The notes under the pieces are model-generated. The model was given only the letters and a program-made list of their open reading frames with translations. It made no database searches and was not told the DNA's origin. The position numbers were made by a program, and so were the translations under genes. From a virus, in the IMG/VR virus record IMGVR_UViG_3300009068_000173, positions 1 through 25,458 of that record: a stretch of 25,458 nt of DNA; one strand, given 5' to 3'. Below are positions 2,232 to 20,722 of this stretch, one piece after another; position 1 is the first letter of the stretch, and every line of letters starts with the position of its first letter.

Positions 2232-2673
2232 TCTTATATTCGAACGCCAAAAGAAGCTCCAGGAGGAGTCATTTGGCATCGATTTTACGGATCTTTCTGA
2301 TGAAGAAAGATCGCAATTTATTAAAGATATGGTCCTGGCTGCTACGGACGAGCTACATGAGGCACTTGCTGAAGTCGGTTGGAAACCCTGGGCGACGTCC
2401 CGACACATAAATCGCGAAGCTTTTGTTGGCGAATTAGTCGATGTTCTTCACTTTATTGTCAATTTGTGGCTTGCTGTAGGCGCAACTCCGGAGGAAGTTG
2501 AGCAGCGTTACCTAGAAAAGGCTACAAAAAATGCTCAACGTCAGAAAGAAGGATATGACGGCATTTGGGGTAAATGTCCGGTTTGTAAGCGCGCCCTTGA
2601 TGATGCCGGTGTTATGTGCTCGGCTTCAGAAGGATGCGAGTATAAAGATGGTTTTTACAACGAGGATTGCTAA
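2224..2673 (+). CDS. All-alpha dUTPase/MazG-like nucleotide pyrophosphatase with zinc ribbon
   Basis: This 149-residue protein has a helical NTP-pyrophosphohydrolase core. The metal-binding ExxE (E43, E46 in TDELHEALAE) and ExxD (E70, D73 in GELVDVLHF) motifs are those of dimeric dUTPases and MazG enzymes. It also has the WKPWATSRHINREAF loop typical of the actinophage version. Residues 118-138 add a zinc ribbon (CPVC and later C132, C138). The family hydrolyses dUTP or related nucleotides to the monophosphate and PPi. All-alpha enzymes also include T4-type dCTPase, so dCTP is a second possible substrate, which matters given the Asp in the neighbouring ThyA-family protein. It overlaps the deaminase by 8 bases. 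Confidence 0.82.
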   Translation: MLNLIFERQKKLQEESFGIDFTDLSDEERSQFIKDMVLAATDELHEALAEVGWKPWATSRHINREAFVGELVDVLHFIVNLWLAVGATPEEVEQRYLEKATKNAQRQKEGYDGIWGKCPVCKRALDDAGVMCSASEGCEYKDGFYNEDC

Positions 2674-3146
2674 TGATTACGATCCTAGAAGGCGTTGACG
2701 GCGTAGGTAAATCAAGCCACGCTGCCTGGTTAGCTAAAGAGCAAAATGCCAAAGTCCTTCATGCGGGTATTCCTCAGCATACGCATTGGTTTGGAGAGTA
2801 CATAAAGCCTTTATTAGAACTTCCAGAGGATCAAAACGTGATTTTGGATCGATGGCATCTAGGAGAGGCAATTTGGCCTTTTGTTTTTAACCGTAAATCA
2901 TTATATTTACGTCCAGAATCGCTTAAACTTTGCCACAAGACTCTAGAAGAATTAGGTGCTAAAATTATTTTTATCTATCGGGACGCTGATTCCATTACAA
3001 GTACCCTGATGCTTCGCGGCGAACAGGATCAGATTGACACAGTTATTAAAGCTCAAGATATGTATTTTGATCTAGTAGCTACTTTAGACAATATCCAAGT
3101 AGTAAATTCAAACGATTTGCAGCGGGAGTTACCTGATGTACATTAA
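2673..3146 (+). CDS. Deoxynucleoside monophosphate / thymidylate kinase-like P-loop kinase
   Basis: The 157-residue P-loop kinase has Walker A at residues 7-14 (GVDGVGKS), a DRWH motif at 59-62 in place of the DRY/DRH base-binding signature of dTMP and deoxynucleoside kinases, and an arginine-containing LID-like stretch around residue 115 (TLMLRGEQDQ). It should phosphorylate a dNMP using ATP. I start it at the ATG overlapping the previous stop (TAATG). A TTG two codons upstream is possible. At 157 residues it is shorter than typical Tmk (about 210), so the substrate is uncertain: dTMP, or a modified dCMP as in T4 gp1. Confidence 0.75.
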   Translation: MITILEGVDGVGKSSHAAWLAKEQNAKVLHAGIPQHTHWFGEYIKPLLELPEDQNVILDRWHLGEAIWPFVFNRKSLYLRPESLKLCHKTLEELGAKIIFIYRDADSITSTLMLRGEQDQIDTVIKAQDMYFDLVATLDNIQVVNSNDLQRELPDVH

Positions 3147-3972
3147 ACTAGACACACCCTCTGAAGTTGTTGAAGTAGCTATTGGAACTTGTATTAATTA
3201 CGGATCGCCAACAACGCCTCGCGGTCAATCTACTCTTGAAGTAAATAACGTTACTTTTGAGATTCAAAGACCCTGGTTAATGCCTTTTGACGTCAAATAT
3301 AGGGACATGAAACCCTTTATTGGTGCAGTCGAAGCGCTTCAATTAGTGGGAATGACTACTGCTCCTGAGCTTGTAGTCTCCGGATCTAAAGTCTTTGGAA
3401 ACTACTTAGACGGCGGCATCTTTCACGGCGCTTATGGTCCAAGAATCTATGGACGACTCCAGCCTTTAGTGGATCTGCTCAAATCAGATCCGGATTCACG
3501 CCAGGCTGTTTTAACCATATTTGACTCTCGTCAGGATCTAGGAGCAAATGTAAAAGATGTTCCTTGTACCCTGGCACTGCAGTTCTTTGTCCGCGACGAT
3601 AAGCTTTGCATGAGAACAACCATGCGATCCAATGATGTTTGGCTAGGTTTGCCATACGATTTGGTTCAGTTTACTGCGCTTCAAGGAGCTATTGCCGCAG
3701 CTTTAGGCATTGAAATGGGTTGGTACGCTCATTCCGTAGGATCGCTGCATTTATACGCAAGAGATATGGAACAGGCTGAACAGATCCAAGCAAACTATGA
3801 CCAGAACTGGGACTATGAACCACTTTGGTCACGAGATACAATTGAACTTATATCTGGCACAGCTAGAGGAATTCTCTATGGTTGGCAGGCTAATATGTAT
3901 CTTGCCGGTTTGACCAAGTTTGAAACCTGGTTAGAGAATGCAGTTTTCCAGGCTAGAGAACGGATTATATGA
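3136..3972 (+). CDS. Thymidylate synthase / dCMP hydroxymethylase family enzyme
   Basis: This 278-residue ThyA-fold enzyme has the catalytic cysteine in DVPCTLALQFFVR (C144), the phosphate-binding arginine in SRQAV (R122), Glu66 in the 'VEALQ' helix, AYGPRIYG (99-106), RSNDVWLGLPYDL (164-176) and the folate/nucleotide loop HSVGSLHLY. The family methylates or hydroxymethylates C5 of a pyrimidine monophosphate with methylene-tetrahydrofolate. Residue 175 (codon 3658-3660) is Asp where dUMP-specific thymidylate synthases have Asn. Asp at this position is the mark of dCMP-specific enzymes such as T4 gp42. The specificity is therefore open. It overlaps the kinase gene by 11 bases. Confidence 0.88.
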   Translation: MYIKLDTPSEVVEVAIGTCINYGSPTTPRGQSTLEVNNVTFEIQRPWLMPFDVKYRDMKPFIGAVEALQLVGMTTAPELVVSGSKVFGNYLDGGIFHGAYGPRIYGRLQPLVDLLKSDPDSRQAVLTIFDSRQDLGANVKDVPCTLALQFFVRDDKLCMRTTMRSNDVWLGLPYDLVQFTALQGAIAAALGIEMGWYAHSVGSLHLYARDMEQAEQIQANYDQNWDYEPLWSRDTIELISGTARGILYGWQANMYLAGLTKFETWLENAVFQARERII

Positions 3973-6595: not shown

Positions 6596-6873
6596 GTATT
6601 GATTGGTCAAGAGTTAGAGCATGCAAAGATTGCTGCGACATACGCAAAGCTACGGATTTAGAAGTAAACAATTACATCGAGGATCACGTTTCACGCGATG
6701 ATGAAATTTGGTATTGTGGCGGTTGCCGGAATTCAAAAAACGAGTGGGTAATTGGAGAGATGCTTTGGGACATAGAAAATGAATTTTTAGTAACTCCATG
6801 TTGTCATACGGAGGCAGCAGAAGCGCTAAATAGCTACGATCCATCGGCTTACCGAACAAAGAGTAAAATATGA
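6592..6873 (+). CDS. Cysteine-rich hypothetical protein, 93 aa
   Basis: The start at 6592 is chosen because it overlaps the previous stop (ATGA) and has GGAGGAAA just upstream, whereas the longer TTG form would begin before this site. Cysteines occur as CKDCC (11-15), CGGC (42-45) and CC near residues 69-70, so one or two zinc sites are likely. The middle is acidic and aromatic (DDEIWYCGGC, WVIGEMLWDIENEF). No family is recognised. It is one of four consecutive mini-genes, three of them with Cys pairs. Confidence 0.6.
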   Translation: MSIDWSRVRACKDCCDIRKATDLEVNNYIEDHVSRDDEIWYCGGCRNSKNEWVIGEMLWDIENEFLVTPCCHTEAAEALNSYDPSAYRTKSKI

Positions 6874-6968
6874 GTAATTGTACGCGCTGCGATGAAAAAC
6901 TAGAAGAAGATACAGGTATTCGATTACTAAACTGGATTCTTTGCGAAATTTGTTTTGACGATATTTAA
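6870..6968 (+). CDS. Zinc-finger miniprotein, 32 aa
   Basis: The frame starts in an ATGA overlap with the preceding gene. It contains CTRC at residues 4-7 and CEIC at 25-28, a complete CxxC...CxxC zinc-knuckle spacing in 32 residues (MSNCTRCDEKLEEDTGIR then LLNWILCEICFDDI). The stop-start overlap and the paired cysteines support it as real. Probably a single zinc finger used for protein or nucleic-acid contact. Confidence 0.5.
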   Translation: MSNCTRCDEKLEEDTGIRLLNWILCEICFDDI

Positions 6969-6992
6969 CTAAATTGTTTGAAAGGGGAGAAG

Positions 6993-9155
6993 ATGAATCC
7001 AGCTGAAGAAGTAGCCGTAATGGGTCCTTACGAAAGATCCGCCAAAGAGTATAGAGCTTTGGGTTGGCTTGACGTATTGCCTTTACCGGCAGGTAAAAAA
7101 AGCCACCCGCCAACAGGATTTACAGGCAAGAGATTTGCACACGTATCTCCAGACGATGATCAGATCCTGAATTGGATCAAGAATAAAGGTCTTGGAAATA
7201 TAGCTTTGCGCATGCCCGCTAATGTGCTTGGGATTGACGTTGACGCATATGGCGATAAAGCCGGATCTGAAACCTTGACACGAGCCATAGCAAGTTTGGG
7301 TCCGCTGCCAGATACCTGGAGAGTTACTTCTCGCGATGACGGTACTAGCGGAATCAGATTTTACCGAGTTCCCGAGGGTCTTCAGTGGCCCAATCAGGTT
7401 GGCCCTGGTATTGAAACAATTCATCGAGGACATCGATATGCTGTAGTTTGGCCCAGCCTTCACCCTGAGGGAAGGGTTTATCGTTGGATCGGTCCGGATA
7501 ACATGACTGCAATTGGCACCGGACCATCACCAATGATCCTTCCCGAGCTACCTTCAACCTGGGTTCAAGAACTTACTCACGGTCAACTTGCCACGGCAGC
7601 CACCGAACGGTCTGATGCGAACGCTGAAGAAATGGCTGTTGCATTTGCCGAATGGTGTACGCCAGGTAATCCTTGCGCTTTAGTTAATAGGAAAATTGAG
7701 GATCTAAACGAAGCTTTATCTGGTCGTTTAGGATCGCGACACGATGCCGTACGAGATCTTATGCTAAGCTTATTGCGGCTTGGTCAAACAGGTCATACTG
7801 GAGTGAATTATGCATTACAAAAAACTGGTCAAGATTTTTCGGCAATTGTCGGGGCTGATCGAGGATCTGTAACGGCAGATCTTGAGTGGCGTCGTATGTT
7901 ACTTGGCGGTATCTCTATTATTCTGGCTAATCTTCACCCGCATGAGATTTGTCACGGGAAGGATTGTGACGGTAAGCTTAAAGGCATGGAGTTCAACGTA
8001 ACCGAATTCCTGGCAGCACCAGCTCCAAACGCTATTGCAGATCGTGAATTAGATGAAGAAGTATCTATTTACGCCGATCTGTCGTGGTTACTGACCGGTA
8101 AGACTCCCGTTATTGATCCTCCGACTTGGATCACAAGATCTGATGGAGCTTCACTCTTCTATCAGGGTCGAATTAATGGTGTGTTTGGTGATCCGGAAAC
8201 GGCTAAATCTTGGCTTGCAATGTGCGCCGTGGTTGAAGGACTTCAGAAGGGCCGCAAAGCAGTCTACTTAGACGTGGATCACAACGGATCGGGTGAAATA
8301 GCTACTCGCCTTATCTCTCTTGGTGCTCCGATAGCTTTTGTGGCTAATCCTGAGTATTTTAGGATCGCAGAACCCGAAGACATCATTGGACTTCGATCTT
8401 TTATTCATGATATGCTTGAATGGAAACCGGAGATAGCGATTGTAGATTCTTTAGGTGAAATTGTGCCTATGTTGGGCCTTAAATCTACAGATAACGATGA
8501 TATTACTAAAGCTATTCGAGCTATCTGCAAGCCTTTGGCTCACGTGATTGGCGCCTGTGTTATTACGATTGACCATTTACCAAAAGGCGTTGATGCCAGA
8601 TCCTCCGGTTATGCCATTGGCGGCACGGCTAAGAAACGCGCTGTTGACGGATCATACTTATCAGCTGAAGTTCTATTGGCTCCAGCGCCTGGTAAGCTAG
8701 GCAAGATCAGCCTTTCTATTGAAAAGGATCGTAACGGAGGACTTAGATCTGCCTCTCCTGGTAAGCATGCTGGAACGTTTGTCCTAGATTCAACAGAAGA
8801 GGGCAGAACTAAATGGCATATAGAAATGCCGACACTTTCCCACGATGGCAAGATGCGACCTACTCTTCTTATGGAAAGATCGTCCAGATTTGTCCTTGAA
8901 TGGATCGGTGAAGATGCTCCGACCCGAAACGAGATCGTGAAGGGCGTAAAAGGCAAAGATTCGGCCGTAGGTCTTGCAATTGACGTTCTCGTTGAGGAAG
9001 GTTATCTATCCGAGACAAAAGACGGAGAATCTAAGAATTCAGCCCGTCGCTTTACTTCGATCAAGGCGTATTCAAGCGCTAATGATCCTTTATCTGATAA
9101 TAACAAATCGTTATTTACTCAACCAAGGGGAAAAAATGACTTATACTTCGATTGA
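6993..9155 (+). CDS. Bifunctional primase-polymerase / RepA-like helicase
   Basis: The start at 6993 follows AAAGGGGAGA; a TTG five codons upstream lies before this site. In 720 residues, the N-terminal 170 form an archaeo-eukaryotic-type prim-pol domain: GIDVDAYGDK (catalytic D82, D84), TSGIRFYRVP (118-127) and IHRGHRYAVVWPSLHPEGRVYRW (143-165 region). Residues about 385-545 form a RecA-fold ATPase of the RepA/AAA_25 type: P-loop GDPETAKS (399-406), Walker B IAIVDSLGE (D485) and TIDHLPKG (525-532). The C-terminal third is likely a winged-helix domain. It should unwind DNA and prime replication. The P-loop has Ala404 where Gly is usual. No separate DNA polymerase is in the window. Confidence 0.85.
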   Translation: MNPAEEVAVMGPYERSAKEYRALGWLDVLPLPAGKKSHPPTGFTGKRFAHVSPDDDQILNWIKNKGLGNIALRMPANVLGIDVDAYGDKAGSETLTRAIASLGPLPDTWRVTSRDDGTSGIRFYRVPEGLQWPNQVGPGIETIHRGHRYAVVWPSLHPEGRVYRWIGPDNMTAIGTGPSPMILPELPSTWVQELTHGQLATAATERSDANAEEMAVAFAEWCTPGNPCALVNRKIEDLNEALSGRLGSRHDAVRDLMLSLLRLGQTGHTGVNYALQKTGQDFSAIVGADRGSVTADLEWRRMLLGGISIILANLHPHEICHGKDCDGKLKGMEFNVTEFLAAPAPNAIADRELDEEVSIYADLSWLLTGKTPVIDPPTWITRSDGASLFYQGRINGVFGDPETAKSWLAMCAVVEGLQKGRKAVYLDVDHNGSGEIATRLISLGAPIAFVANPEYFRIAEPEDIIGLRSFIHDMLEWKPEIAIVDSLGEIVPMLGLKSTDNDDITKAIRAICKPLAHVIGACVITIDHLPKGVDARSSGYAIGGTAKKRAVDGSYLSAEVLLAPAPGKLGKISLSIEKDRNGGLRSASPGKHAGTFVLDSTEEGRTKWHIEMPTLSHDGKMRPTLLMERSSRFVLEWIGEDAPTRNEIVKGVKGKDSAVGLAIDVLVEEGYLSETKDGESKNSARRFTSIKAYSSANDPLSDNNKSLFTQPRGKNDLYFD

Positions 9156-10281
9156 TTGCCAATCGTTCGCAGGCGGATTTACTTTAGGAGCTAAGCTAGC
9201 AGGATTTGAAATCATCGGTAAGCGTGAAGCTACCGGAGGGTTTGGAGTCCCAGCGGTAAAAGGTAACAAAAAGTTACTTGGCGACTTCAGCATAGAAGCT
9301 GGCGCTCCAGATACCTGGACGCCTCTTAAAGCCGATCTTGTCTTCGGAAATCCCCCGTGCTCAGGCTTTTCTAATCGATCCAGTATGGTCCGAGGACTAG
9401 ACGAGAACGGAGAGATCCAAAGAGTTCAGTACACCGGATACGCAGCGGCGCCTAACCAATGTATGTGGGATCTGATCGAATACGCTGCTAAATGTGATCC
9501 TGAGATTGTTATGTTTGAGTCCGTCCAGGGCGCCTATAACAAGGGTCGAGACCTCATGCAGGATCTAAGAAATAGCCTTGAGATGAAAACCGGCAGCCAA
9601 TACCACCTTTATCACGTTCTTCATGATGTAGCTAAGCTAGGCGGAGCTCAGGAACGCAAGAGATATTTCTGGGTTGCTGCCAGGATCAAGTTCGGAGTCG
9701 ATCCGGTCGAGATCAGCCCTACTACGGTCAAAGATCGCATCGGTGACCTTGAGAACGTTGCTCTAGGATCGATGAACGGTCACCAGATCGAGGATACTCC
9801 CCGAGGTCGTCGGGTAACTGAGCTAGCGTCCAAGGTGGAATGGAAAGCGAACGAGGTATCAGGAGACGTGTATCGACGGGCTCTGGATCTTGGTGCTGAT
9901 CTTGCCCTTTGGGACGATGATCTGAAAAGTGATAAGGGTATTACCCAATTTGCTCCGAAAAGACTGAGCTATGATACCCCTTCAAATGTTCTCGCCGGAG
10001 ATGCCCTTTGGCGTCAGGTTCACCCAACTTTGCCCCGGACTTTGACACATCGGGAAGTTGCTCGGCTGTCCGGGTTCCCCGATGATTGGGACTGCAAGCC
10101 GTATCAGGATCGTAAAACTAATGCGTATTGGTGGGGAAAAGGGATCTGTATTGAAGCTGGAAAATGGATCTCGACTGCGGCTTACGATGCCATTTCAGGT
10201 CAATCTCAAGCTTACCAGGGCGAACTTATTGGTGACCGAGAGAGTCTTATTGACTTCAGCAAGACTAAAAAAAATGGATAA
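9136..10281 (+). CDS. C5-cytosine DNA methyltransferase
   Basis: The start at 9136 has AAGGGG upstream and overlaps the helicase gene by 20 bases. The 381-residue protein carries C5-methyltransferase motifs: SFAGGFTLGAKLAGFE (motif I, SAM binding), GNPPCSGFS (motif IV, nucleophile C75), FESV (motif VI, E128; the usual ENV has become ESV), QERKRYFWVA (motif VIII), a variable target-recognition region around residues 190-300, and THREVARLSGFPDDW plus a GKGICIEAGKW segment at the end (motifs IX/X). It methylates a specific DNA site, probably to protect phage DNA from host restriction. No cognate endonuclease is adjacent, so it is an orphan. Confidence 0.85.
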   Translation: MTYTSIDCQSFAGGFTLGAKLAGFEIIGKREATGGFGVPAVKGNKKLLGDFSIEAGAPDTWTPLKADLVFGNPPCSGFSNRSSMVRGLDENGEIQRVQYTGYAAAPNQCMWDLIEYAAKCDPEIVMFESVQGAYNKGRDLMQDLRNSLEMKTGSQYHLYHVLHDVAKLGGAQERKRYFWVAARIKFGVDPVEISPTTVKDRIGDLENVALGSMNGHQIEDTPRGRRVTELASKVEWKANEVSGDVYRRALDLGADLALWDDDLKSDKGITQFAPKRLSYDTPSNVLAGDALWRQVHPTLPRTLTHREVARLSGFPDDWDCKPYQDRKTNAYWWGKGICIEAGKWISTAAYDAISGQSQAYQGELIGDRESLIDFSKTKKNG

Positions 10282-11443: not shown

Positions 11444-11518
11444 ATGGCAAAATTAGCACAAACATGGTATAAATATCCCCGGCGAGTTGTTTCTAAATTA
11501 GGTTGGACCCTAGAATGA
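11444..11518 (+). CDS. Possible 24-residue leader-type peptide upstream of the peptidase
   Basis: A 25-codon frame (MAKLAQTWYKYPRRVVSKLG, then WTLE) ends in an ATGA overlap with the peptidase start, the same junction used throughout this operon. It is basic and aromatic. There is no strong ribosome site (GGAGAGG lies about 18 bases upstream), so coupling by overlap is the main support. It could regulate translation of the peptidase or be a small phage protein. Confidence 0.4.
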   Translation: MAKLAQTWYKYPRRVVSKLGWTLE

Positions 11519-12117
11519 CAACTTTGATTGCTTACCAGGGTGAAGGCTTTTGTGTTATAGCCGCAGATTCACAAACTACTTTTAATAACATGAGTGCAGA
11601 TTGTTCTCCTATGGGGAAAATTGCAGTTAATGGAAAGTTCCTTGTATCAGCTGCAGGAACAGTACGTGGAATGAATTTAATTCAGCATTCATTTCGTCCG
11701 CCTGCACTACGATCCACAACGGATCTAGATAGCTACATGATTAATAAATTTGTTCCGGCATTACGTAAAATATTTATAAGTGCTGGTTATGATATTAAAG
11801 ACAGCGCGGATATTGCTTCGCATGAGAATGATTTTATTGTTGCTATTAATGGAACATTGTTCTTTGTTGATTCAGTATATGGCGTTGAACGTAATAAAGA
11901 TAATATTCATATAACCGGATCTGGTCAATCGCTTGCTCTTGGCGCAGCTTATGCATTAGGTATTAAAGATGCAGATGACTACGAAGAAGTTGTAGATATA
12001 ATCGTTCAATCAGTACAAACAGCAATTAAGTTTGATATCTATTCAAGCGGAGCAGTACAGATCGCGGTGCAATTCACCGATGGCAAAATACTTATGACTA
12101 CATTAGACGATGAATAA
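11515..12117 (+). CDS. HslV / 20S proteasome beta-like Ntn-hydrolase peptidase
   Basis: The 200-residue protein begins Met-Thr-Thr, so Met removal would expose Thr2 as an N-terminal nucleophile. Counting from it, Asp18 (in IAADSQTT) is position 17 and Lys35 (in MGKIAV) is 34, very close to the Thr1/Asp17/Lys33 triad of proteasome beta subunits and HslV. KFLVSAAG (residues 41-48) matches the strand before the conserved Gly, and ITGSGQSLALGAAYAL (about 137-152) matches the HslV 'IGSGGPYAQAAARAL' segment. Length fits HslV (about 175) plus a short extension. No propeptide and no HslU-type ATPase are nearby, so a host unfoldase or an independent role is implied. The start at 11515 is preferred to a TTG at 11503. 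Confidence 0.75.
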   Translation: MTTLIAYQGEGFCVIAADSQTTFNNMSADCSPMGKIAVNGKFLVSAAGTVRGMNLIQHSFRPPALRSTTDLDSYMINKFVPALRKIFISAGYDIKDSADIASHENDFIVAINGTLFFVDSVYGVERNKDNIHITGSGQSLALGAAYALGIKDADDYEEVVDIIVQSVQTAIKFDIYSSGAVQIAVQFTDGKILMTTLDDE

Positions 12118-12418
12118 ACCATGCTTAGATTGTGGTGTGTTAGCAAACAAACCTAGATGTTCTATTTGCAATAAGAAGTATGAGAAGTTCAAAGCAACTT
12201 CTCGTCCCTCACGCGCAGATAGAGGTTACGATGCAAATTGGAAAAGGTTATCAAAACAACTTAGATTGCTACAACCTTATTGCACTATTTGTAAAGCAAC
12301 TAACGATTTGACCGTGGATCACATAATCCCTTTATCAGGTGGTGGTCTCACGGTCCAATCCAATCTTCAAGTCTTATGTAGACGATGCAACAGCAGCAAA
12401 GGAACTTCTTCTTCCTAG
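12110..12418 (+). CDS. HNH endonuclease
   Basis: In 102 residues, an N-terminal zinc-binding part (CLDCG at 5-9, CSIC at 17-20) and a basic linker (RPSRADRGYDANWKRLSKQL) lead to a second Cys pair (CTIC) and the HNH core: VDHIIPLSGGG, SNLQVLCRRCNSSKG, with the catalytic His in DHI and the final Asn/His-equivalent in CNSSKG. It is a compact nuclease of the kind found beside terminases in HK97-like phages, where the HNH protein takes part in genome packaging and end cleavage. It overlaps the peptidase gene by 8 bases. The terminase genes start 150 bases later. Confidence 0.85.
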   Translation: MNKPCLDCGVLANKPRCSICNKKYEKFKATSRPSRADRGYDANWKRLSKQLRLLQPYCTICKATNDLTVDHIIPLSGGGLTVQSNLQVLCRRCNSSKGTSSS

Positions 12419-12427
12419 ATAACGATT

Positions 12428-12436
12428 TGTTATACT
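12428..12436 (+). promoter_or_regulatory. Candidate extended -10 promoter for the late (structural) operon
   Basis: TGTTATACT contains TATACT with an upstream TG one base before it, the extended -10 form. There is no good -35 hexamer 17 bases upstream. It sits just after the HNH stop in the largest gap of the right half, and transcription from about 12443 would cover the terminases and head genes. Confidence 0.4.
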
Positions 12437-12442
12437 AAATCT

Positions 12443-12569
12443 TATAGAACGCCCACGGGCAGACATGGTACGGGCTAAAAGTACGTGTACAAGCTGCCCC
12501 AGTTACCCCGCAGCCCCGATAGCGCGTAAAGTATCAAAATTATGAAATTGACAAAACTGGAGGATTTTG
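12443..12569 (+). other. Leader region with imperfect hairpin and a 26-codon open frame
   Basis: GGGCAG (12457-12462) pairs with CTGCCC (12494-12499), and inside it two further 4-bp helices (12463-12466 with 12485-12488; GTAC 12468-12471 with 12481-12484) leave a 9-base loop. A 26-codon frame at 12465-12545 (MVRAKSTCTSCPSYPAAPIA...) resembles the Cys-containing start of some phage HNH proteins, but has no ribosome site. This stretch is more GC-rich than its flanks. It could be a 5' leader structure, a packaging-site element or a gene remnant. The role is not established. Confidence 0.35.
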
Positions 12570-13031
12570 ATGACGGCGGGTCGTCCACGCAAACCCATTG
12601 AACAAAAGCGCAAAACGGGTCGAACTCCTACAACGGATTCAGGAGGTCGCAAACTTCCTGATGTTCAGAAGATCACAGTATTGCCGATGGCCGATGGTAT
12701 TCCGACTCCTCCTATGGATCTAGGTTTAGAAGGTAGAGAGCTTTGGGGAAAAGCATGGGATCGAGCTATTACCTGGCTTTCTCCCGTAAGTGATTTAACA
12801 CAAGTTCATCACGCTTGCAGAGTTGCAGATGATCTTAATTTAGCGAGAACAGTTTACAATACGACGCATGACTCACAAGACGGGCGGCTTGTGGTTGCAC
12901 TAAGTAAGTCTTTTCATGAAGCTTTGGCTTCATTAGGATTTACACCTACATCTCGCTCGCAATTAGGCGTAGCGGAGGTTAAGCGTGTCACAGCTCTCGA
13001 ACAACTTATTGCTACCAAACGAGCCAAGTAA
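12570..13031 (+). CDS. terS: Terminase small subunit
   Basis: The ATG at 12570 has GGAGG (12559-12563) well placed. The protein has 153 residues: a basic, disordered N-terminus (TAGRPRKPIEQKRKTGRTPT) typical of P27-type small terminases, a Pro-rich linker, then helices (EGRELWGKAWDRAITWL, VHHACRVADDLNLARTVY) and a C-terminal helical segment. It would recognise the packaging site and load the large subunit. Its position directly before the large terminase and after an HNH endonuclease matches the HNH-TerS-TerL order of HK97-like phages. The P27 assignment is by pattern only. Confidence 0.8.
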   Translation: MTAGRPRKPIEQKRKTGRTPTTDSGGRKLPDVQKITVLPMADGIPTPPMDLGLEGRELWGKAWDRAITWLSPVSDLTQVHHACRVADDLNLARTVYNTTHDSQDGRLVVALSKSFHEALASLGFTPTSRSQLGVAEVKRVTALEQLIATKRAK

Positions 13032-14547
13032 TTCGTGGCCGCCCAAGTGGCTTACACCTGTATCTGAAGAGGATCAACAACGAGGCGACGGTCCTGTCTT
13101 TAAACAGTTTGCTGAAACAGTTTGTCGCGTTACCAAAGACTCATTAGGTGGTCAAGCTGGAGAGTTAATTCGTTTTCGCAGTTGGCAAGAGAATCTTCTT
13201 AATCACGCTTTAGCAAGAAAAGAAAACGGTAGATTTAAACATCGCATTGCCTTGATTGGCATGGCACGTAAAAATGGTAAGTCTGCTCTTGGTGCTTCGG
13301 TCGGTCTAGCAGGTTTAACGCTAGGCGGACAAGGTTCTGAGATCTATTCATGCGCAGCGGATCGAGATCAAGCACGAATTGTGTTTGGTACTGCTAAGCG
13401 AATGGTTGAATTAGACGAAGAACTATCTAAAATGTTTACTCTTTACCGTGATGCAATTGAATATAAAGATACAGGTTCTGTCTATAAAGTCCTCTCGGCA
13501 GAGGCTTACACAAAAGAAGGTCTCAATCCGTCACCTCTTGTGATCTTCGATGAAGTCCACGCGCAGCCAAATCGCGAACTTTGGGATGTAATGTCTCTTG
13601 CCGGAGGCGCAAGAGCCGATTCTTTACTGTTTGGTATTACTACTGCTGGTGTAAAAACGCAGACTGATGGTCAAGATTCTTTGTGTTATTCACTTTATCA
13701 GTACGGTCAGCAGCTAGTTAAAAAAGAATTAGAAGATCCGTCATTCTTCTTTGCTTGGTGGGAACCCAAAAATGTAGAAGCGGATCATCGAGAACGATTT
13801 ATGTGGGAAGAATCAAATCCAGGTTTTAACGACATTGTTGACTCTGAAGATTTTGAGTCTTCTGTACTTAGAACACCAGAAGCAGAATTTCGAACTAAGC
13901 GAACTAACTGCTTTGTTTCAACATCTACCGCATGGCTTCCTACCGGAAGCTGGGACGCGTTGATTGACAAAGACAGAGTGCCAATGCAAGGCGAAAATGT
14001 AATTCTTGCATTTGATGGAGCTTTCTCTAATGACTCTACAGCTCTAGTTGCGTGGCTTATTGGTTCTGAAAAACCACATTTAATGGTTGTAGGACTATGG
14101 GAAAGACCGATTGATGCTGATCAGTCTTGGCACGTGCCTGTTGCAGAGGTTGAAAAGACTATTATTGATGCCTGTAGAGATGGCAGATTTAACGTAAAAG
14201 AGATCGTTTTTGATCCTGCACGATGGAATAGAACTTTTATGGTTTTAGATGAAGATGGTTTGCCATGTGTTTCATATCCAAACTCAGCAGAACGTATGGT
14301 TCCCGCAACACAAAAGTTTTATGAAGCAGTAGTAAATCAATCATTTACACACGATGGTGATGAACGTCTTGCAAGACATGTAGCTAACTGTGTGACAAAG
14401 CAATCATCACGTGGTGTCATGGTTGCTAAAGCTTCTTCTCGAAGAAAAGTAGATGCTGCGGTTGCTTCGATCTTTGGTTATGACCGAGCAACACAACCAC
14501 CCGAACCCAAAGAACCTGTTGCCAGGTATTTCTCAATACAAGTATGA
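12985..14547 (+). CDS. terL: Terminase large subunit
   Basis: This is a 520-residue packaging motor. The ATPase domain has GMARKNGKSAL (Walker A, residues 92-102), VIFDEVHAQPN (Walker B, about 186) and GITTAGV (coupling motif). The RNase H-like nuclease has ILAFDGAFSNDSTALVAW (first Asp near 343) and EIVFDPARWN (near 407). It translocates DNA into the capsid and cuts the concatemer. The start used is a GTG at 12985, overlapping TerS by 47 bases; a later TTG at 13009 would shorten the overlap. The next gene starts 8 bases after the stop, and its ribosome site overlaps the stop codon. Confidence 0.92.
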   Translation: MSQLSNNLLLPNEPSNSWPPKWLTPVSEEDQQRGDGPVFKQFAETVCRVTKDSLGGQAGELIRFRSWQENLLNHALARKENGRFKHRIALIGMARKNGKSALGASVGLAGLTLGGQGSEIYSCAADRDQARIVFGTAKRMVELDEELSKMFTLYRDAIEYKDTGSVYKVLSAEAYTKEGLNPSPLVIFDEVHAQPNRELWDVMSLAGGARADSLLFGITTAGVKTQTDGQDSLCYSLYQYGQQLVKKELEDPSFFFAWWEPKNVEADHRERFMWEESNPGFNDIVDSEDFESSVLRTPEAEFRTKRTNCFVSTSTAWLPTGSWDALIDKDRVPMQGENVILAFDGAFSNDSTALVAWLIGSEKPHLMVVGLWERPIDADQSWHVPVAEVEKTIIDACRDGRFNVKEIVFDPARWNRTFMVLDEDGLPCVSYPNSAERMVPATQKFYEAVVNQSFTHDGDERLARHVANCVTKQSSRGVMVAKASSRRKVDAAVASIFGYDRATQPPEPKEPVARYFSIQV

Positions 14548-14555
14548 GGAGCATC

Positions 14556-14696
14556 ATGAAAAAACTTGACTTTGCTTTATTAACAGAATTGGCAGGAGTA
14601 ATTCTTGTCGCAATTGGGGTCGCTATGTTCTCTGTTCCACTTTCTTTTATTACGGTGGGTGGATTTCTTATTTGGGCTACAGAAAAGGCTAACTGA
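14556..14696 (+). CDS. Small two-helix membrane protein, 46 aa
   Basis: The ribosome site GAGGAG overlaps the terminase stop. The 46-residue product has two hydrophobic segments (about 12-26, LAGVILVAIGVAMFS; and 28-42, PLSFITVGGFLIWAT) with a short Pro-containing turn and a charged end (EKAN). The stop overlaps the next start (TGATGA). Small membrane proteins of this size next to terminase genes are common in phages, but their roles are not known. It could be holin-like by topology, but nothing here proves lysis function. Confidence 0.65.
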   Translation: MKKLDFALLTELAGVILVAIGVAMFSVPLSFITVGGFLIWATEKAN

Positions 14697-15046
14697 TGAC
14701 AGCTGGAATTTATAACGCAACCATAGATCAAGGTGCTACGTGGAGCGTTACGGTCACATATAAAGATTCAAATGGTGCGCCAATTAACTTAACTGGTTAT
14801 ACAGCAGCAATGCAAGTCCGTCAGCAATATAGTTCTACAGATGCAGATCTAACATTGACCAGTCCAAGTGGCGGAATTGTAATTACGCCGTTAACGGGAG
14901 TTATTGTCATTACAATGTCAGCTACACAAACACTTTCTTTATCAGAAGGTTTTTATGTATACGATGTTGAACTTACATCAGGAACTTTTAAGGACCGTAT
15001 GATGCAAGGGCAATTAACCGTTGCTCCAGAGGTGACGCGTGTCTGA
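14696..15046 (+). CDS. Beta-sandwich fibre/adaptor protein, 116 aa
   Basis: The protein starts MTAGIYNATIDQGATWSVTV and continues with YKDSNGAPINLTGYTAAMQV, a segmented beta-sandwich of the type found in phage baseplate or fibre adaptor proteins (BppU-like). The C-terminus VYDVELTSGTFKDRMMQGQL followed by VAPEVTR is also typical. It probably links a fibre to the tail or a fibre to a neighbour protein. It starts in an overlap with the membrane protein gene and ends overlapping the collagen-like fibre gene, which fits a structural partner role. Exact attachment point unknown. Confidence 0.7.
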   Translation: MTAGIYNATIDQGATWSVTVTYKDSNGAPINLTGYTAAMQVRQQYSSTDADLTLTSPSGGIVITPLTGVIVITMSATQTLSLSEGFYVYDVELTSGTFKDRMMQGQLTVAPEVTRV

Positions 15047-16682
15047 TAATCAAGTCACTATTGTTAAAGATATTAACACAGTAACTATTGCTGATGCTGG
15101 TACTCAAGGTCCTTCAGGTGCTCAAGGCATAACAGGTTCTCAAGGAATACAAGGTATACAAGGTGCGCAAGGCGTTCAAGGCGTTGTTGGCACACAAGGA
15201 CTTGTTGGATCTCAAGGTTTGCAAGGTACACAAGGTGTAAACGGTGTTCAAGGAATTACCGGCATTCAAGGTACACAAGGTTTACAAGGTAATCAAGGAA
15301 CGCAAGGTGTAGTTGGCTTACAAGGTTTAACTGGGATTCAAGGCACTCAAGGTCTTACTGGTTTACAAGGAGCAACAGGTACTCAAGGAACTCTTGGAAC
15401 TCAAGGCACTACTGGAACTCAAGGCACTACTGGAACTCAAGGATTGCAAGGTCGCCAAGGTACAGTTGGTAATCAAGGAACTATTGGCACACAAGGAACA
15501 ACCGGTTTACAGGGAACTACCGGTGCGCAAGGTTTAACTGGCACGCAAGGTTTAACTGGAATTCAAGGATCTGTCGGTATTCAAGGCACAGTTGGATCTC
15601 AAGGTTTAACTGGTACCCAAGGAATTCAAGGAATACAAGGACTACAAGGTTTAGGCGATAGATACCAAACAACGTCTACTACTTCTATTACACTTCCAGC
15701 ATCTGGTGTTGTGGCTTTAATTGTAGGTGCTAATCTTTCTTACTCAACTGGTCAAACCGTTTCTGTTGCAAACACCGTTGCCCTCTATTTTATTGGCGAC
15801 GTCGTCAGCTACAACGTCAGCACTGGAGCGCTCAGCGTCTCAGTCACTCGCACCAACGGTACTGGCCTTTACTCCTCTTGGGCTGTAAACCTTGACGGCG
15901 CAGTCGGTATTCAAGGTGTTCAGGGAACTCTTGGAAATCAAGGAACACTTGGCGCGCAAGGTACTACAGGACTGCAAGGTTCTACTGGCACACAAGGCGT
16001 GACTGGATTACAAGGATCTCTTGGTCTGCAAGGTAACACTGGAACTCAAGGTGTTACTGGTTTACAAGGTTTTAACGGAACACAAGGAACTTTAGGAACA
16101 CAAGGTTCTACAGGCACTCAAGGTATTATCGGTGTTCAAGGAATTACTGGCACAACCGGTAATACAGGTCTTCAAGGTACTACTGGAGCACAAGGAACTA
16201 CTGGAGAAACTGGTCTACAAGGTTTAATTGGTTTGCAAGGAAATTCTGGAACTAATGGTACAAATGGTGCACAAGGAACTACTGGAACCCAGGGTCTTGT
16301 TGGAAATCAAGGAACTATTGGACAACAAGGTGTTACAGGTTTTCAAGGTACTACTGGCGTAAACGGCACTCAAGGCTTAATAGGTACCCAAGGATCAGTA
16401 GGTACGCAAGGAACTGATGGTATAACAGGTAATCAAGGCACTCAAGGCATTCAAGGTACGCTTGGTTTGCAAGGTACAACTGGACTACAAGGATTCTTTG
16501 GAACTCAAGGCGTTGGTGGAGTACAAGGCACAACTGGTGAAAACGGCAATGCTTATATCGTTGACTTCTTAGATGGCGGTTCTTCACCAATAATTCCAGA
16601 CATTATTTATGATTCTGGTGTTTCAACCACCTTAACATGGACTTACACCATTGACGCAGGTGGCGCAACGGTTTCATTCTAA
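15039..16682 (+). CDS. Collagen-like fibre protein with Gly-X-Gln repeats
   Basis: This is a 547-residue protein with a GTG start at 15039. A short non-collagen head (MSDNQVTIVKDINTVTIADA) leads into Gly-X-Y repeats at residues 21-206, an interrupting domain at 207-286 (DRYQTTSTTSITLPASGVV...), a second Gly-X-Y block at 287-504, and a C-terminal beta domain (about 505-547). The Y position is very often Gln (GTQGLQG, GITGIQG), with Thr also frequent; Pro and Lys are scarce. It should form a long trimeric rod, probably a tail or head fibre carrying a tip domain. Part of the interrupting domain (DNA 15780-15900) is visibly more GC-rich than its flanks. Confidence 0.85.
   Translation: MSDNQVTIVKDINTVTIADAGTQGPSGAQGITGSQGIQGIQGAQGVQGVVGTQGLVGSQGLQGTQGVNGVQGITGIQGTQGLQGNQGTQGVVGLQGLTGIQGTQGLTGLQGATGTQGTLGTQGTTGTQGTTGTQGLQGRQGTVGNQGTIGTQGTTGLQGTTGAQGLTGTQGLTGIQGSVGIQGTVGSQGLTGTQGIQGIQGLQGLGDRYQTTSTTSITLPASGVVALIVGANLSYSTGQTVSVANTVALYFIGDVVSYNVSTGALSVSVTRTNGTGLYSSWAVNLDGAVGIQGVQGTLGNQGTLGAQGTTGLQGSTGTQGVTGLQGSLGLQGNTGTQGVTGLQGFNGTQGTLGTQGSTGTQGIIGVQGITGTTGNTGLQGTTGAQGTTGETGLQGLIGLQGNSGTNGTNGAQGTTGTQGLVGNQGTIGQQGVTGFQGTTGVNGTQGLIGTQGSVGTQGTDGITGNQGTQGIQGTLGLQGTTGLQGFFGTQGVGGVQGTTGENGNAYIVDFLDGGSSPIIPDIIYDSGVSTTLTWTYTIDAGGATVSF
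15099..16551 (+). repeat. Imperfect 9/18-bp tandem repeats encoding Gly-X-Gln triplets
   Basis: Two long blocks (15099-15656 and 15897-16551) are built from short units such as GGTACTCAAGGT. One 18-base unit (TGGAACTCAAGGCACTAC) is repeated exactly around 15397-15432. Most Gln codons are CAA. The repeats follow the coding frame, so they are best explained by the collagen-like protein. Length change by slippage or recombination between units is likely over time. A third, shorter block occurs in the next gene (16866-17125). Confidence 0.8.
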
Positions 16683-16703
16683 CTACGGCTAAAGGACAAA
16701 AAT

Positions 16704-17429
16704 ATGACATCACGCTTACAAAATCGCCGCGATACAGCTGCAAACTGGACCGCTAATAATCCAACACTTGCTGCTGGTGAGATTGGGCTTGAAACTGATA
16801 CAGCAAAGTTTAAGATGGGCAATGGATCAACAGCTTGGACTTCACTTGCGTACGCGTACACAGCGGGTGCGCAGGGCACTACCGGCACTCAAGGTTTAAC
16901 TGGCGCGCAAGGAATACAAGGTACAACAGGCTTACAAGGCACTACTGGTTTTCAAGGCACTACCGGAACGCAAGGTATTACCGGAACGCAAGGTATACAG
17001 GGAACACAAGGAATACAAGGTACAACAGGCTTACAAGGCACAAGTGGATCTCAAGGCACTACTGGAACTCAAGGCATTCAAGGAACGCAAGGAATACAAG
17101 GCATCACTGGCACTACTGGCGGTGGAATTGCAGGATTTAACGCACAATCTGGTTCAACCTATACTCTTGTTCTTGGAGATCTAAATAAATTAGTTACAGC
17201 ATCAATTGCAAATACAATTACAGTTCCACCATCAGTTTACTCAGCAAATGATGTAATCAATATTCAACAGATTGGCACAGGACAGATAACATTTGCGGCT
17301 GGCTCTGGTGTAACAATTACTTCAAATGGAGCAACTAGTGCGGCACCAAAAACTAGGACTCAGTATTCAGCATGCAGTGTTATTTGTACAGCTGCAAACG
17401 TGTTTACTATTATTGGTGACATTGCCTAA
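16704..17429 (+). CDS. Fibre protein: Mtd-like N-terminal domain, collagen-like middle, beta C-terminal tip
   Basis: The 241-residue product has three parts. Residues 1-52 (RLQNRRDTAANWTANNPTLA, then GEIGLETDTAKFKMGNGSTA) match the widespread tail-fibre attachment repeat seen at the start of major-tropism-determinant-type and other phage fibres. Residues 55-141 are Gly-X-Gln collagen-like triplets matching those of the preceding protein. Residues 142-241 form a beta-rich tip (YTLVLGDLNKLVTAS, VINIQQIGTGQITFAAGSG) of a type common at fibre ends. It probably forms a second, shorter trimeric fibre or pairs with the neighbour. Its stop overlaps the glycine-rich adhesin start (TAATG). Confidence 0.82.
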   Translation: MTSRLQNRRDTAANWTANNPTLAAGEIGLETDTAKFKMGNGSTAWTSLAYAYTAGAQGTTGTQGLTGAQGIQGTTGLQGTTGFQGTTGTQGITGTQGIQGTQGIQGTTGLQGTSGSQGTTGTQGIQGTQGIQGITGTTGGGIAGFNAQSGSTYTLVLGDLNKLVTASIANTITVPPSVYSANDVINIQQIGTGQITFAAGSGVTITSNGATSAAPKTRTQYSACSVICTAANVFTIIGDIA

Positions 17430-19156
17430 TGCCAATTTTAGGAATTGTAGCTAGTCAGATTTCTGGCCACCTTAATCTTGTAACAGACTTTCTTGTTATT
17501 GCAGGCGGCGGTGGCGGTGGTGGAAATCTTGCAGGTGGCGGTGGTGCTGGTGGGCTTGTTTATACCGCAGCACAGAAACTTTCTTTTAACACTTCCTATA
17601 CAGTAACAGTAGGACCTGGCGGTGCAGGAGCATCAAGCGGTGGGCCAAGTGGAACTGCTGGCACAAACTCTAATGTTACTGGAACTGGATTGTCTTTAAC
17701 TGCTGCCGTTGGTGGTGGAGCTGGCCAAGGAGATTCATACTTAACGGTCGGATTAAACGGCGGTTCAGGTGGCGGTGGTTCCCGTGCTAGTGGCAATTTT
17801 GGAACTGGAACTTCAGGGCAAGGCAATAATGGCGCGGCTGGGTACGGTACACCGTACCAAAACGGCGGAGGCGGCGGTGGTGCGGACGCCGCTGGATCTA
17901 CTAATAGCGGTAGCTATAACGGCGGTGCTGCTGGTAATGGTACAAATACATATTCAACCTGGGCAAGTGCAACATCATCAGGTGTAAGTGGATATTATGC
18001 AGGTGGTGGTGGTGGCGGCGGTGGAGCAAGCGGAAGTGCTAACGGCGGTGCGGGTGGTGCAGGTGGTGGTGGTAACGGTGGTGGAACATCAGCCGCTCCA
18101 ATCGCAGGAACAGTCAATACTGGCGGCGGCGGCGGCGGTGGCTATTGGGATTCTTATTCTCCGAAGCACCTTGGCGCGGCTGGAGGATCAGGAATCGTGA
18201 TTACTCGCTATTCAGGAGCACAAGCTGCCAATGGTGGAATTGTAACTGCATCTGGTGGCTATACGTATCATAAGTTTACTTCTGATGGCAATTTTGTAAC
18301 TTTAGCTTCAGCTGCAAAAGCATCAGGCGGTACTGTTGTACTTTCTGGTGGTTATTTTTATCACACATTTTTATCAGATGGAACATTTACACCTGCATCA
18401 TCAACATTGACTTGTGACGTGCTTGTTATTGCAGGCGGCGGAGCTGGTGCATATTTGTACGGAGGAGGCGGTGGAGCTGGTGGAGTTTCTTATCAAACTG
18501 GAAGATCAGTAACTACTGGTGCCAAAACAGTAACCGTTGGTGGTGGTGGAACTGCACCTGGAACTACTGGCAATGGCGGCAATGGAAATAACTCTGTATT
18601 TGATACCATTACTTCAAACGGAGGTGGTGGCGGTGGCGCATGGATAGCAAGCACAGGAACTAACGGTCTTGCTGGCGGTTCTGGTGGTGGAGGATCTATG
18701 GGAACTAGCTCTGGAAATACAACATCAGGCGGCACTGCAAATCAAGGTTCCTCAGGCGGAGCAACTGGCTATGGAAACAATGGCGGCGGCGGCCTTCGCG
18801 GTAGTGGTAGCACTTATTTTGGCGGCGGCGGCGGCGGTTCAGGATCAGTAGGCACGTCAGCGGTTGCAGGACAGGGCGGCGCGGGTGGAGCAGGTAAAAA
18901 TGATTGGTCAACTTGGGCATCCGCAACTAGTACTGGTGTTTCTGGTTATTACGCTGGAGGTGGTGGTGGTTCAGGAGAAGGTGGTGGAACTGCTCCTGCT
19001 GGTGGTTCTGGTGGCGGAGGAAGAGGCCAACTTTACGACACTGTTGGCGCGGTATCTGGAACCGTTAATACAGGTTCGGGCGGAGGCGGACTAGCAAATA
19101 ATGCAACACCCGGTAATGGTGGTTCTGGCATTGTTATTATTCGATACGCAATCTAA
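17429..19156 (+). CDS. Duplicated glycine-rich (polyglycine) tail adhesin
   Basis: This 575-residue protein is dominated by runs of Gly. Two similar domains are visible, about 20-262 and 330-575. Each starts with [LF]VIAGGG, contains STWASATSxGVSGYYAGGGG, and ends with GSGIVIxRY. Between them lie two shorter ~30-residue repeats of the form GGxxxASGGYTYHKFTSDGNF. Glycine-rich domains of this kind form polyglycine-helix sandwiches at tail tips, as in T-even gp38 adhesins, and bind receptors. The gene follows two fibre genes and overlaps the previous stop. The duplication may allow two binding surfaces or give raw material for variation. Confidence 0.82.
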   Translation: MPILGIVASQISGHLNLVTDFLVIAGGGGGGGNLAGGGGAGGLVYTAAQKLSFNTSYTVTVGPGGAGASSGGPSGTAGTNSNVTGTGLSLTAAVGGGAGQGDSYLTVGLNGGSGGGGSRASGNFGTGTSGQGNNGAAGYGTPYQNGGGGGGADAAGSTNSGSYNGGAAGNGTNTYSTWASATSSGVSGYYAGGGGGGGGASGSANGGAGGAGGGGNGGGTSAAPIAGTVNTGGGGGGGYWDSYSPKHLGAAGGSGIVITRYSGAQAANGGIVTASGGYTYHKFTSDGNFVTLASAAKASGGTVVLSGGYFYHTFLSDGTFTPASSTLTCDVLVIAGGGAGAYLYGGGGGAGGVSYQTGRSVTTGAKTVTVGGGGTAPGTTGNGGNGNNSVFDTITSNGGGGGGAWIASTGTNGLAGGSGGGGSMGTSSGNTTSGGTANQGSSGGATGYGNNGGGGLRGSGSTYFGGGGGGSGSVGTSAVAGQGGAGGAGKNDWSTWASATSTGVSGYYAGGGGGSGEGGGTAPAGGSGGGGRGQLYDTVGAVSGTVNTGSGGGGLANNATPGNGGSGIVIIRYAI

Positions 19157-19168
19157 ATAGGGGGCAAT

Positions 19169-19369
19169 ATGAAAAACAATGTAACAAAGATTAAAGAAAG
19201 CAAAACAACACAATGCTTTTCATACGAGATCAGTATGCTGGTTCATGTTATTGCAGACAATGAGGAAACAGCTAAGTCTCAATTAGATGAAAAAGGCGGA
19301 ATTGTTACCAAGCGTGATGTTAAGTTAGTAAACACAGTAACGCTTTACGGCGAAGATAAGGATAAATAA
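19169..19369 (+). CDS. Hypothetical protein, 66 aa
   Basis: ATAGGGGG precedes the ATG at 19169. The 66-residue protein looks like a small alpha/beta fold: a strand (YEISMLVHVIA), a helix (EETAKSQLDEKGG) and two further strands (IVTKRDVKLVNTVTLYG), with a charged Lys/Asp end. The beta-alpha-beta-beta pattern is also typical of small phage proteins of unknown role. It ends immediately before the next ATG (19370), so they share an mRNA. Function unknown. Confidence 0.65.
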   Translation: MKNNVTKIKESKTTQCFSYEISMLVHVIADNEETAKSQLDEKGGIVTKRDVKLVNTVTLYGEDKDK

Positions 19370-19708
19370 ATGTCACATTGGGCAAAAGTAGAAGATGGTG
19401 TAGTCACACAGGTTAATGTAGTTGAAGATGAGTTTCTTTATGCCAATCCTGATCGATACACAGGCACTTGGATCAAGACTTCTTATAATACACACGGCGG
19501 AGTTCATTCTTTAGGTGGAACACCATTAAACAAAAACTATGCAGGCGTTGGATATACATGGGATGGTACAGGATTTGCTGCACCACAGCCATATTCTTCT
19601 TGGACTTTAAACTCAGAAACTTATATTTGGGAAGCACCAACTGTAATGCCTATTGATGGCAAATTATACACTTGGAATGAAGCAAGTCTTTCCTGGGTTG
19701 AACTATAA
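19370..19708 (+). CDS. Conserved phage structural-region protein, 112 aa
   Basis: It begins MSHWAKVEDGVVTQVNVVED and has SYNTHGGVHSLGGTPLNKNY, then AGVGYTWDGTGFAAPQPYSS and WEAPTVMPIDGKLYTWNEAS. This pattern (SHWAKVE..., NTxGGVH, PLxKNYAGxGYTxD, APxPxPxDGKLYxW) is one I recognise from many marine and freshwater tailed phages, where the protein lies among tail and fibre genes. It is probably a small virion or fibre-associated protein, but its role is not known. It starts directly after the upstream stop with no gap. Confidence 0.75.
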   Translation: MSHWAKVEDGVVTQVNVVEDEFLYANPDRYTGTWIKTSYNTHGGVHSLGGTPLNKNYAGVGYTWDGTGFAAPQPYSSWTLNSETYIWEAPTVMPIDGKLYTWNEASLSWVEL

Positions 19709-19709
19709 T
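19704..19709 (+). promoter_or_regulatory. TATAAT hexamer, candidate promoter for the glycan-type cassette
   Basis: A perfect TATAAT overlaps the stop of the 112-residue protein and is followed by an A/T-rich run and then GTCGGGGGAC, a strong ribosome site, before the ATG at 19733. No good -35 is seen 17 bases upstream. It could give the three-gene cassette at 19733-21918 its own promoter, as in morons. Confidence 0.3.
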
Positions 19710-19732
19710 AAAATAAAAAAGTCGGGGGACTA

Positions 19733-20722
19733 ATGAATCTAGTTAAAAAAGCAGTAAAGTTTGGTGGTAAATTAGCACCACTAGTTATTTCAGAAGGTCT
19801 TACCTCTGGAACTGGTTTAATGAATCCGTCAGTTTTTATAGATAACGATGGCGACATACTCGTCAATCTGCGCCATGTGAACTACACGCTTTATCACGCA
19901 GAGAGCACTCAGCGATTCCCGTCTCGGTGGGGCCCACTTGGGTACCTGCACCCAGAAAAAGACCAGCGACTGGTCACAGAGAATTACGTTTGCAGGTTGA
20001 ACTCAGACCTTGAAATAACAGACCACGCAAGAGTTGAGATGCTCGAGTTGCACACTCCGATTTGGGAGTTCGTGGGACTTGAGGACGCTAGACTAGTGCA
20101 GTGGGACGGAGAATACTCCATCATTGGAGTTCGCAGAGACACGACCACAAACGGCGTCGGCCGCATGGAGAAGTCAATCATCAAGCTTGACAAATCCAAG
20201 TGGAGTGCCAAAGAGGTCAAGCGCACGCGCATTCCAGCTCCAGATCCAAATGAGTCATATTGTGAAAAAAACTGGATGCCAGTTGTAGAAAGACCAAATC
20301 AGTTTATTAAATGGACTAGTCCAGTTGAAGTCGTTGAATTGCAAGGCAATAAGTGTATTCAACTTGCGGTCAAACAAGGTATAAAGCCAAACAAAGATCA
20401 AAGAGGTGGCTCACAAGTTATTAAGTGGGGCAACGTCTACATTAGCGTTACGCACGAAGTTGACTTGTTTAAGAACTATCTAGAACAAAAAGACGGTCTG
20501 TACCGCCACCGCTTATGCGTATGGGACAATCAACTTAATCTTGTGGGTCTTGGTCAACCGTTTAGTTTCTTAAATGGAAACATTGAGTTTTGTGCTGGCG
20601 CTGCAGTCTTTGAGGGCGACCTGCTCATTTCGTTTGGCTTTCAGGACAACGCGGCCTTTATACTGCGGACACCAAAAGCTGTAGTTGAAGACATGATTGT
20701 TGAGGCACTCGATGCTAATTGA
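19733..20722 (+). CDS. GH130-like beta-propeller glycosidase/glycan-associated protein
   Basis: GGGGGAC lies upstream of the ATG. The 329-residue sequence shows repeated beta strands with motifs of five-bladed propeller enzymes: TGLMNPSVFIDNDGDILVNL near the start, GLEDARLVQWDGEY (115-128), EKNWMPVVE (178-186), RGGSQVIKWGNVYISVTHE and EFCAGAAVFEGDLLISFG. The 'E-D-x-R' and 'KNW.P' signatures are those of GH130-type phosphorylase/hydrolase folds, which act on mannosides. It probably processes or builds a glycan on the virion or host surface, but the active residues are unproven. Roughly 19855-20240 is more GC-rich than flanking sequence. The next gene overlaps its end by 11 bases. Confidence 0.6.
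   Translation: MNLVKKAVKFGGKLAPLVISEGLTSGTGLMNPSVFIDNDGDILVNLRHVNYTLYHAESTQRFPSRWGPLGYLHPEKDQRLVTENYVCRLNSDLEITDHARVEMLELHTPIWEFVGLEDARLVQWDGEYSIIGVRRDTTTNGVGRMEKSIIKLDKSKWSAKEVKRTRIPAPDPNESYCEKNWMPVVERPNQFIKWTSPVEVVELQGNKCIQLAVKQGIKPNKDQRGGSQVIKWGNVYISVTHEVDLFKNYLEQKDGLYRHRLCVWDNQLNLVGLGQPFSFLNGNIEFCAGAAVFEGDLLISFGFQDNAAFILRTPKAVVEDMIVEALDAN

Follow-up and report, generated by a model that had tools for sequence, protein, structure and literature searches.

The closest described systems for the gene analyzed here are gp42, the dCMP hydroxymethylase of phage T4, and MilA, the CMP hydroxymethylase of the mildiomycin pathway. For gp42, it was proposed that water is preferred to hydride owing to Asp145 (site 143; sites are given in E. 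coli ThyA numbering) and the loss of Trp83 (PMC6400193). In MilA the preference for ribose is determined by Ala176 and Lys133, and reversing both residues shifts the enzyme towards dCMP (PMC5175136). On a broader scale, the MetaGPA study of 2021 found that sites 147 and 177 separate cytosine-modified from unmodified phage contigs, and linked Asp at site 177 and the partner domains dCMP deaminase and pyrophosphohydrolase to the modified contigs (PMC8670742). That Asp177 marks dCMP enzymes is established knowledge, and the protein described here adds a member to this group. DNA of the Stenotrophomonas phage AXL3 is cut only by TasI and Tru1I, which have A/T-only sites, and not by 35 enzymes whose recognition sites contain G/C; the authors of that study read the ThyA-like gp28 as a dTMP-making enzyme (PMC7504290).

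A ThyA-family gene in an overlapping phage operon

The analyzed window is the whole 25,458-base virus record IMGVR_UViG_3300009068_000173, which is probably a genome fragment of an uncultured phage with a probably actinobacterial host. No DNA-level relatives of the window were found among named phages. A near relative, G001 (36.4 kb), appears to be circularly permuted and close to complete, because the 5' end of the window matches the 3' end of G001 and the part that follows matches its start.

The open reading frame at positions 3136–3972 (plus strand, as for the operon genes, the residues and the methyltransferase-like gene described below) starts with ATG preceded by GGGAG, and encodes a protein of 278 amino acids that matches Pfam Thymidylat_synt (E = 7e-20). 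Based on this match, MAFFT alignments and an AlphaFold2 (AF2) model, we predict that the protein is a dCMP 5-hydroxymethylase. Its gene is one of five overlapping genes in the same direction, which encode a dCMP deaminase, a dUTPase/dCTPase-like enzyme, a kinase-like protein, the ThyA-like protein and a resolvase-like protein (from 3969). The deaminase (1800–2231, 143 aa) was recognized by Pfam dCMP_cyt_deam_1 (3e-16) and MafB19-deam (9e-7) and by phrog_174 (8e-32). The all-alpha NTP pyrophosphatase (2224–2673, 149 aa), which overlaps both neighbours, matches Pfam dUTPase_2 (1e-13) and phrog_18650 (6e-37), and the P-loop kinase (2667–3146, 159 aa) resembles thymidylate kinases (Pfam Thymidylate_kin 3e-4, below the cut-off; phrog_761 3e-6); the assignments of these two proteins are weak. 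A profile built from the pyrophosphatase and its relatives matches the T4 gp56 frame at 3e-6, which is consistent with a dCTP activity, and homologues in Microbacterium phages carry a dUTPase annotation. The kinase is presumed to be a dNMP kinase for 5-hydroxymethyl-dCMP. This neighbourhood is conserved: of 80 viral contigs with a ThyA-like gene, 78 have a kinase homologue next to it and 75 a dCMP deaminase gene nearby.

The gene content resembles that of T4, where dUTPase/dCTPase-like, kinase-like and deaminase functions also accompany the hydroxymethylase in the precursor pathway, but in the window the genes are packed into one overlapping operon and the host is probably actinobacterial. The ThyA-like proteins of the MetaGPA study (PMC8670742) likewise have Asp177, a changed site 147, and co-occurring dCMP deaminase and pyrophosphohydrolase domains. 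Unlike those contigs, the window is known from sequence and not from enzymatic selection, and no carbamoyltransferase was identified among the genes scanned in this genome fragment.

Elsewhere in the window, about 7 kb (14696–21918) with collagen-like/Mtd_N tail-fibre, glycine-rich, TPR and FkbM methyltransferase genes lie between the terminase and portal genes, whereas in G001 the portal gene directly follows the terminase gene. A proteasome/HslV-like peptidase gene at 11503–12117 (phrog_1040, 3e-22) is unusual for a small phage genome.

Conservation of an aspartate at the base-discriminating site

The initial annotation had placed Asp175 at the position that discriminates dUMP from dCMP. Alignment with ThyA and gp42 bore this out: codon GAT at 3658–3660 encodes residue 175, which shares its MAFFT column with E. 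coli ThyA Asn177 and T4 gp42 Asp179. The catalytic nucleophile, described earlier as intact, is indeed present as Cys144 (3565–3567); it aligns with E. coli Cys146 and T4 Cys148 and is invariant, as is Glu66 (3331–3333; E. coli Glu58, T4 Glu60), which serves cofactor activation.

Of 98 family members in an alignment, 96 have Asp at site 177, and only E. coli ThyA and the SPO1 dUMP hydroxymethylase deviate; as some loci overlap and the survey was partly seeded with patterns from Asp-type proteins, this count describes constancy inside the clade and not the frequency of Asp across all ThyA proteins. Since Asp175 is also invariant in ten divergent relatives and in a set of 28 aligned rows, it reflects neither chance nor a sequencing error.

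Further active-site positions were tabulated alongside those of enzymes whose function is known or assigned by family. Most true thymidylate synthases combine Leu143 with His147 and Asn177, the phi3T-type enzymes and EfaM_A2 having Val at site 147. The dUMP hydroxymethylases of SPO1 and, by family assignment, of Vi01 and M6 have Asp143, Asn147 and Asn177. The combination Asp143, Thr147 and Asp177 is found in T4 gp42, in MilA, and in the window protein together with almost all of its relatives. In the window protein these residues are Asp141 (3556–3558; T4 Asp145, E. coli Leu143), the hydroxymethylase marker discussed for gp42 (PMC6400193), Thr145 (3568–3570; E. coli His147), the second cytosine marker from MetaGPA, and Asp175. 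Asp141 and Thr145, as well as Asp167 at the pterin-binding site (3634–3636; E. coli Asp169), are markers beyond those initially recognized. The Trp83 column contains Tyr90 and the Trp80 column a gap.

An alternative reading is a normal thymidylate synthase in which Asp at site 177 is tolerated. Such enzymes are characterized by Asn177, His147, Leu143 and Trp83. Here the four residues are Asp, Thr, Asp and Tyr, respectively, and Asp at site 177 does not vary within the family. Scores against the NCBIfam thymidylate synthase equivalogs were also far below every cut-off (for example, 68.5 versus 327 bits and 67.8 versus 108 bits), and two relatives, phages AXL3 and GMA2, possess a separate ThyX as dTMP synthase; a search for ThyX in G001 found none. 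Relatives do carry the annotation "thymidylate synthase", and a dTMP supply pathway could likewise include neighbours of the dCMP deaminase, dUTPase-like and TMK-like kinds. In particular, the adjacent dCMP deaminase is equally expected in a dTMP pathway and speaks against a hydroxymethylase to that extent. Overall, we regard a thymidylate synthase as highly improbable. At the level of sequence, Asp175 and Thr145 support the proposed preference for dCMP over dUMP.

Sugar specificity and structural similarity

The AF2 model of the window protein (pLDDT 89.6) had MilA as its best match among the PDB matches listed (Z 26, 265–269 residues aligned), followed by the flavin-dependent hydroxylase AfhB (Z about 22) and thymidylate synthases (Z 19–20). 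T4 gp42 was absent from the best 50 structural matches listed, which excludes nothing. MilA was also the best match by sequence (26% identity), so that a CMP hydroxymethylase of the MilA type was considered. The residues that determine ribose use in MilA differ, however: Ala176 is replaced by Ser165 (3628–3630; E. coli Ser167), a marker for deoxyribose, and Lys133 by Arg122 (3499–3501; E. coli Arg126). Both are the forms found in deoxyribonucleotide enzymes, and it is their introduction that moves MilA towards dCMP (PMC5175136). Moreover, the window gene resides in a phage replication operon and not in an antibiotic gene cluster. A preference for CMP appears extremely improbable on these grounds.

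Chromosomal ThyA-like proteins with Asp143, Thr147 and Asp177 were found mostly in Streptomyces genomes (loci L229-L242, L249, L253, L256 and L277). Most of them have Gly at the Ser167 site, in contrast to the Ser of the phage proteins, as if they were tuned for ribonucleotides like MilA; they possibly belong to nucleoside-antibiotic genes.

The window protein also shares with T4 gp42 the catalytic Cys and Glu, Asp at sites 143, 169 and 177, Thr after the Cys, and the Ser and Arg sugar determinants. It is only about 19% identical to gp42, belongs to another branch of the family and has Pro instead of Met before the Cys. In the family tree gp42 sits on a very long branch without a stable place.

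Hydroxymethyl, methyl or hydroxyl product

The initial annotation had left the product as either 5-hydroxymethyl- or 5-methyl-dCMP. Of these, the hydroxymethyl product is favoured by Asp141 and the missing Trp83, in agreement with the gene context and the restriction-resistant DNA of AXL3, and the methyl product is disfavoured. A dCMP 5-methylase of the phage Xp12 type would make the same choice of base and form 5-methyl-dCMP by hydride transfer. According to literature cited in PMC8670742, the exchange N177D alone converts a thymidylate synthase to a dCMP methylase, and a ThyA on a random viral contig, L358 (G066), has Leu at site 143, Tyr after the Cys and Asp at site 177 (motifs CLPPCYYS and LGLPSD). 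Because this protein combines the Leu143 and Asp177 sites, Asp177 alone leaves the product unsettled; the L358 protein is a candidate dCMP methylase rather than a hydroxymethylase. The window protein, by contrast, has the hydroxymethylase features common to T4 gp42, MilA and the dUMP hydroxymethylases, namely Asp141 at the Leu143 site and a residue other than Trp at the Trp83 site (PMC6400193), which makes a methylase unlikely.

AfhB of phage HY126 (9iqu, 9iqc), a dCMP-binding protein with the ThyA fold, ranks among the structures nearest to our model. A flavin-dependent dCMP 5-hydroxylase of this kind would yield 5-hydroxy-dCMP. AfhB and its counterpart in Acinetobacter phage AM101 have Asn169, Glu143 and Phe209, a class definition that is our own reading of these two sequences, whereas the window protein has Asp167, Asp141 and Tyr207. 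A flavin hydroxylase is hence a very unlikely interpretation.

The residues at sites 143, 147 and 177 taken together with Ser165, Arg122, Asp167 and Tyr207 point to 5-hydroxymethyl-dCMP as the product and folate as the cofactor. We infer from these residues that the ThyA-family protein is, with high probability, a folate-dependent dCMP 5-hydroxymethylase.

Predicted pathway

In the predicted reaction, Cys144 would attack C6 of dCMP, and Asp175 with Thr145 would hold and protonate cytosine, not uracil. Methylene-tetrahydrofolate, activated via Glu66 and held by Asp167, would donate the one-carbon unit. As Asp141 is present and Trp is absent from the Trp83 site, the exocyclic methylene would be resolved by water and not by hydride, yielding 5-hydroxymethyl-dCMP. 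The upstream kinase and a host NDP kinase could then convert this product to the triphosphate. Meanwhile, the pool of dCTP would shrink through the dUTPase/dCTPase-like enzyme, which would regenerate dCMP, and the deaminase would adjust the ratio of dCMP to dUMP, as in T4. The 5-hydroxymethyl-cytosine nucleotides are very probably made for the phage's own DNA, where the modified base may block restriction and could be decorated further.

Phage AXL3 offers a close parallel in a cultured phage. Its gp27–gp30 comprise the same four functions in one cluster, and its ThyA-like protein has the same marker residues, including Asp143, Thr147 and Asp177. Differences from the window are an identity of 30%, a longer kinase (327 aa) and the additional ThyX. 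The restriction resistance of AXL3 DNA could have another cause.

Two relatives contain genes of interest in this context. In L005, a relative with 53% identity, a PLP-enzyme-like (threonine dehydratase-like) gene at 6632–7540 lies directly 5' of the kinase–ThyA pair; it is a possible further modification enzyme. In G001 (L021), two glycosyltransferase-like genes at 7037–7747 and 12397–13449 (one Anp1-like, a weak match, and one GT2) could decorate either hydroxymethylcytosine or the virion, and were not assigned to DNA modification because they are located among structural genes.

A C5-methyltransferase-like companion protein

The window encodes a second protein of potential relevance to cytosine, a divergent C5-cytosine methyltransferase-like protein of 381 amino acids (9136–10281; Pfam DNA_methylase, 4e-21) from a phage-only subfamily. 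Its AF2 model (pLDDT 89) matches M.HaeIII with Z 28.8. Cys75, the presumed nucleophile (9358–9360), Glu128 of motif VI and the motif VIII residues Arg174 and Arg176 are invariant in all 85 subfamily sequences. Where canonical enzymes have PCQ, ENV and the Asn of motif X, the subfamily has PCS (PPCS in the window protein), E(S/C)V and Lys335 (10138–10140), respectively, with Lys in 83 of the 83 sequences that have a residue at the last site. The Glu that binds the SAM ribose is kept in the window protein and is Thr in 50 of the 85 sequences. A scan of prokaryote genomes found no relative, and matches on plasmids were generic methylases at 22–26% identity.

In the collection of named phages, strong and nearly full-length matches occurred in DSL-LC01, in Micrococcus phage Kurnik and in the Gordonia phages GMA2, Mareelih, Forza, BlueNGold, Boopy, Sixama, GodonK and Phendrix. 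DSL-LC01 and the Gordonia phages with this companion also carry relatives of the window ThyA, and Asp175 was confirmed in DSL-LC01, GMA2, GodonK and Forza. Kurnik has a ThyA of the T4 gp42 type (1.6e-62 to 1b49) and a companion that falls inside the companion family tree. The companion is thus conserved across two ThyA lineages, which rules out that all carriers share one.

Among 20 larger viral contigs chosen for the companion, 17 contained a ThyA; all 17 of these had Asp177 and Thr147, and 16 had Asp143. Only one of 30 random viral contigs of at least 25 kb contained a ThyA. The association yielded p = 2e-9 in a Fisher test, which is not a true probability as the contigs are related. The converse did not hold, with the companion in 22 of 34 Asp-type contigs tested, although many contigs are fragments.

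Lys335 corresponds to M.HhaI Asn304 and to Arg350 of CmoX, the carboxymethyltransferase of Synechococcus phage S-B43, and at this site the engineered M.MpeI N374K gained use of carboxy-SAM (PMC12783734). The companion resembles CmoX in that both are phage proteins of the C5-methyltransferase fold and have a basic residue at the Asn304 site. It differs in having Lys instead of Arg and in being tied to a dCMP hydroxymethylase, and the Cx-SAM synthase CmoA (TIGR00740) was not found in 19 records, including window relatives and G001; the host may supply a CmoA. We rejected a CmoX-like function with carboxy-SAM based on the Lys and the missing CmoA.

A methyltransferase-like gene that should require a free C5 fits awkwardly with full replacement at this position and speaks against the hydroxymethylase prediction. 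Most simply, the companion would methylate residual cytosine or that of the host in the ordinary way. C5-methyltransferases can also act on 5-hydroxymethylcytosine in vitro, whereby the hydroxymethyl group is lost as formaldehyde (PMC11347137). It is conceivable, albeit doubtful, that the companion acts on 5-hydroxymethylcytosine in DNA, where the Cys/Glu site and the altered cofactor pocket with Lys at the Asn304 site would strip off or exchange the hydroxymethyl group at selected positions. The companion would then follow the hydroxymethylase as the second of two enzymes in a cytosine pathway, instead of being an ordinary methylase.

Implications

The label "thymidylate synthase" appears to be misleading for this protein family, and we replace it with the prediction of 5-hydroxymethylcytosine DNA in this phage and broadly among its relatives. 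These include cultured phages, namely the Gordonia phages GodonK, GMA2 and Forza as well as AXL3. The residues at sites 143, 147, 169 and 177 may tell apart methyl, hydroxymethyl and hydroxyl products within the ThyA fold. The association with the methyltransferase-like companion is the part of this work that deserves follow-up, as its pairing with a ThyA of the dCMP hydroxymethylase type raises the question of what role such a protein would have where C5 of cytosine should already be occupied.
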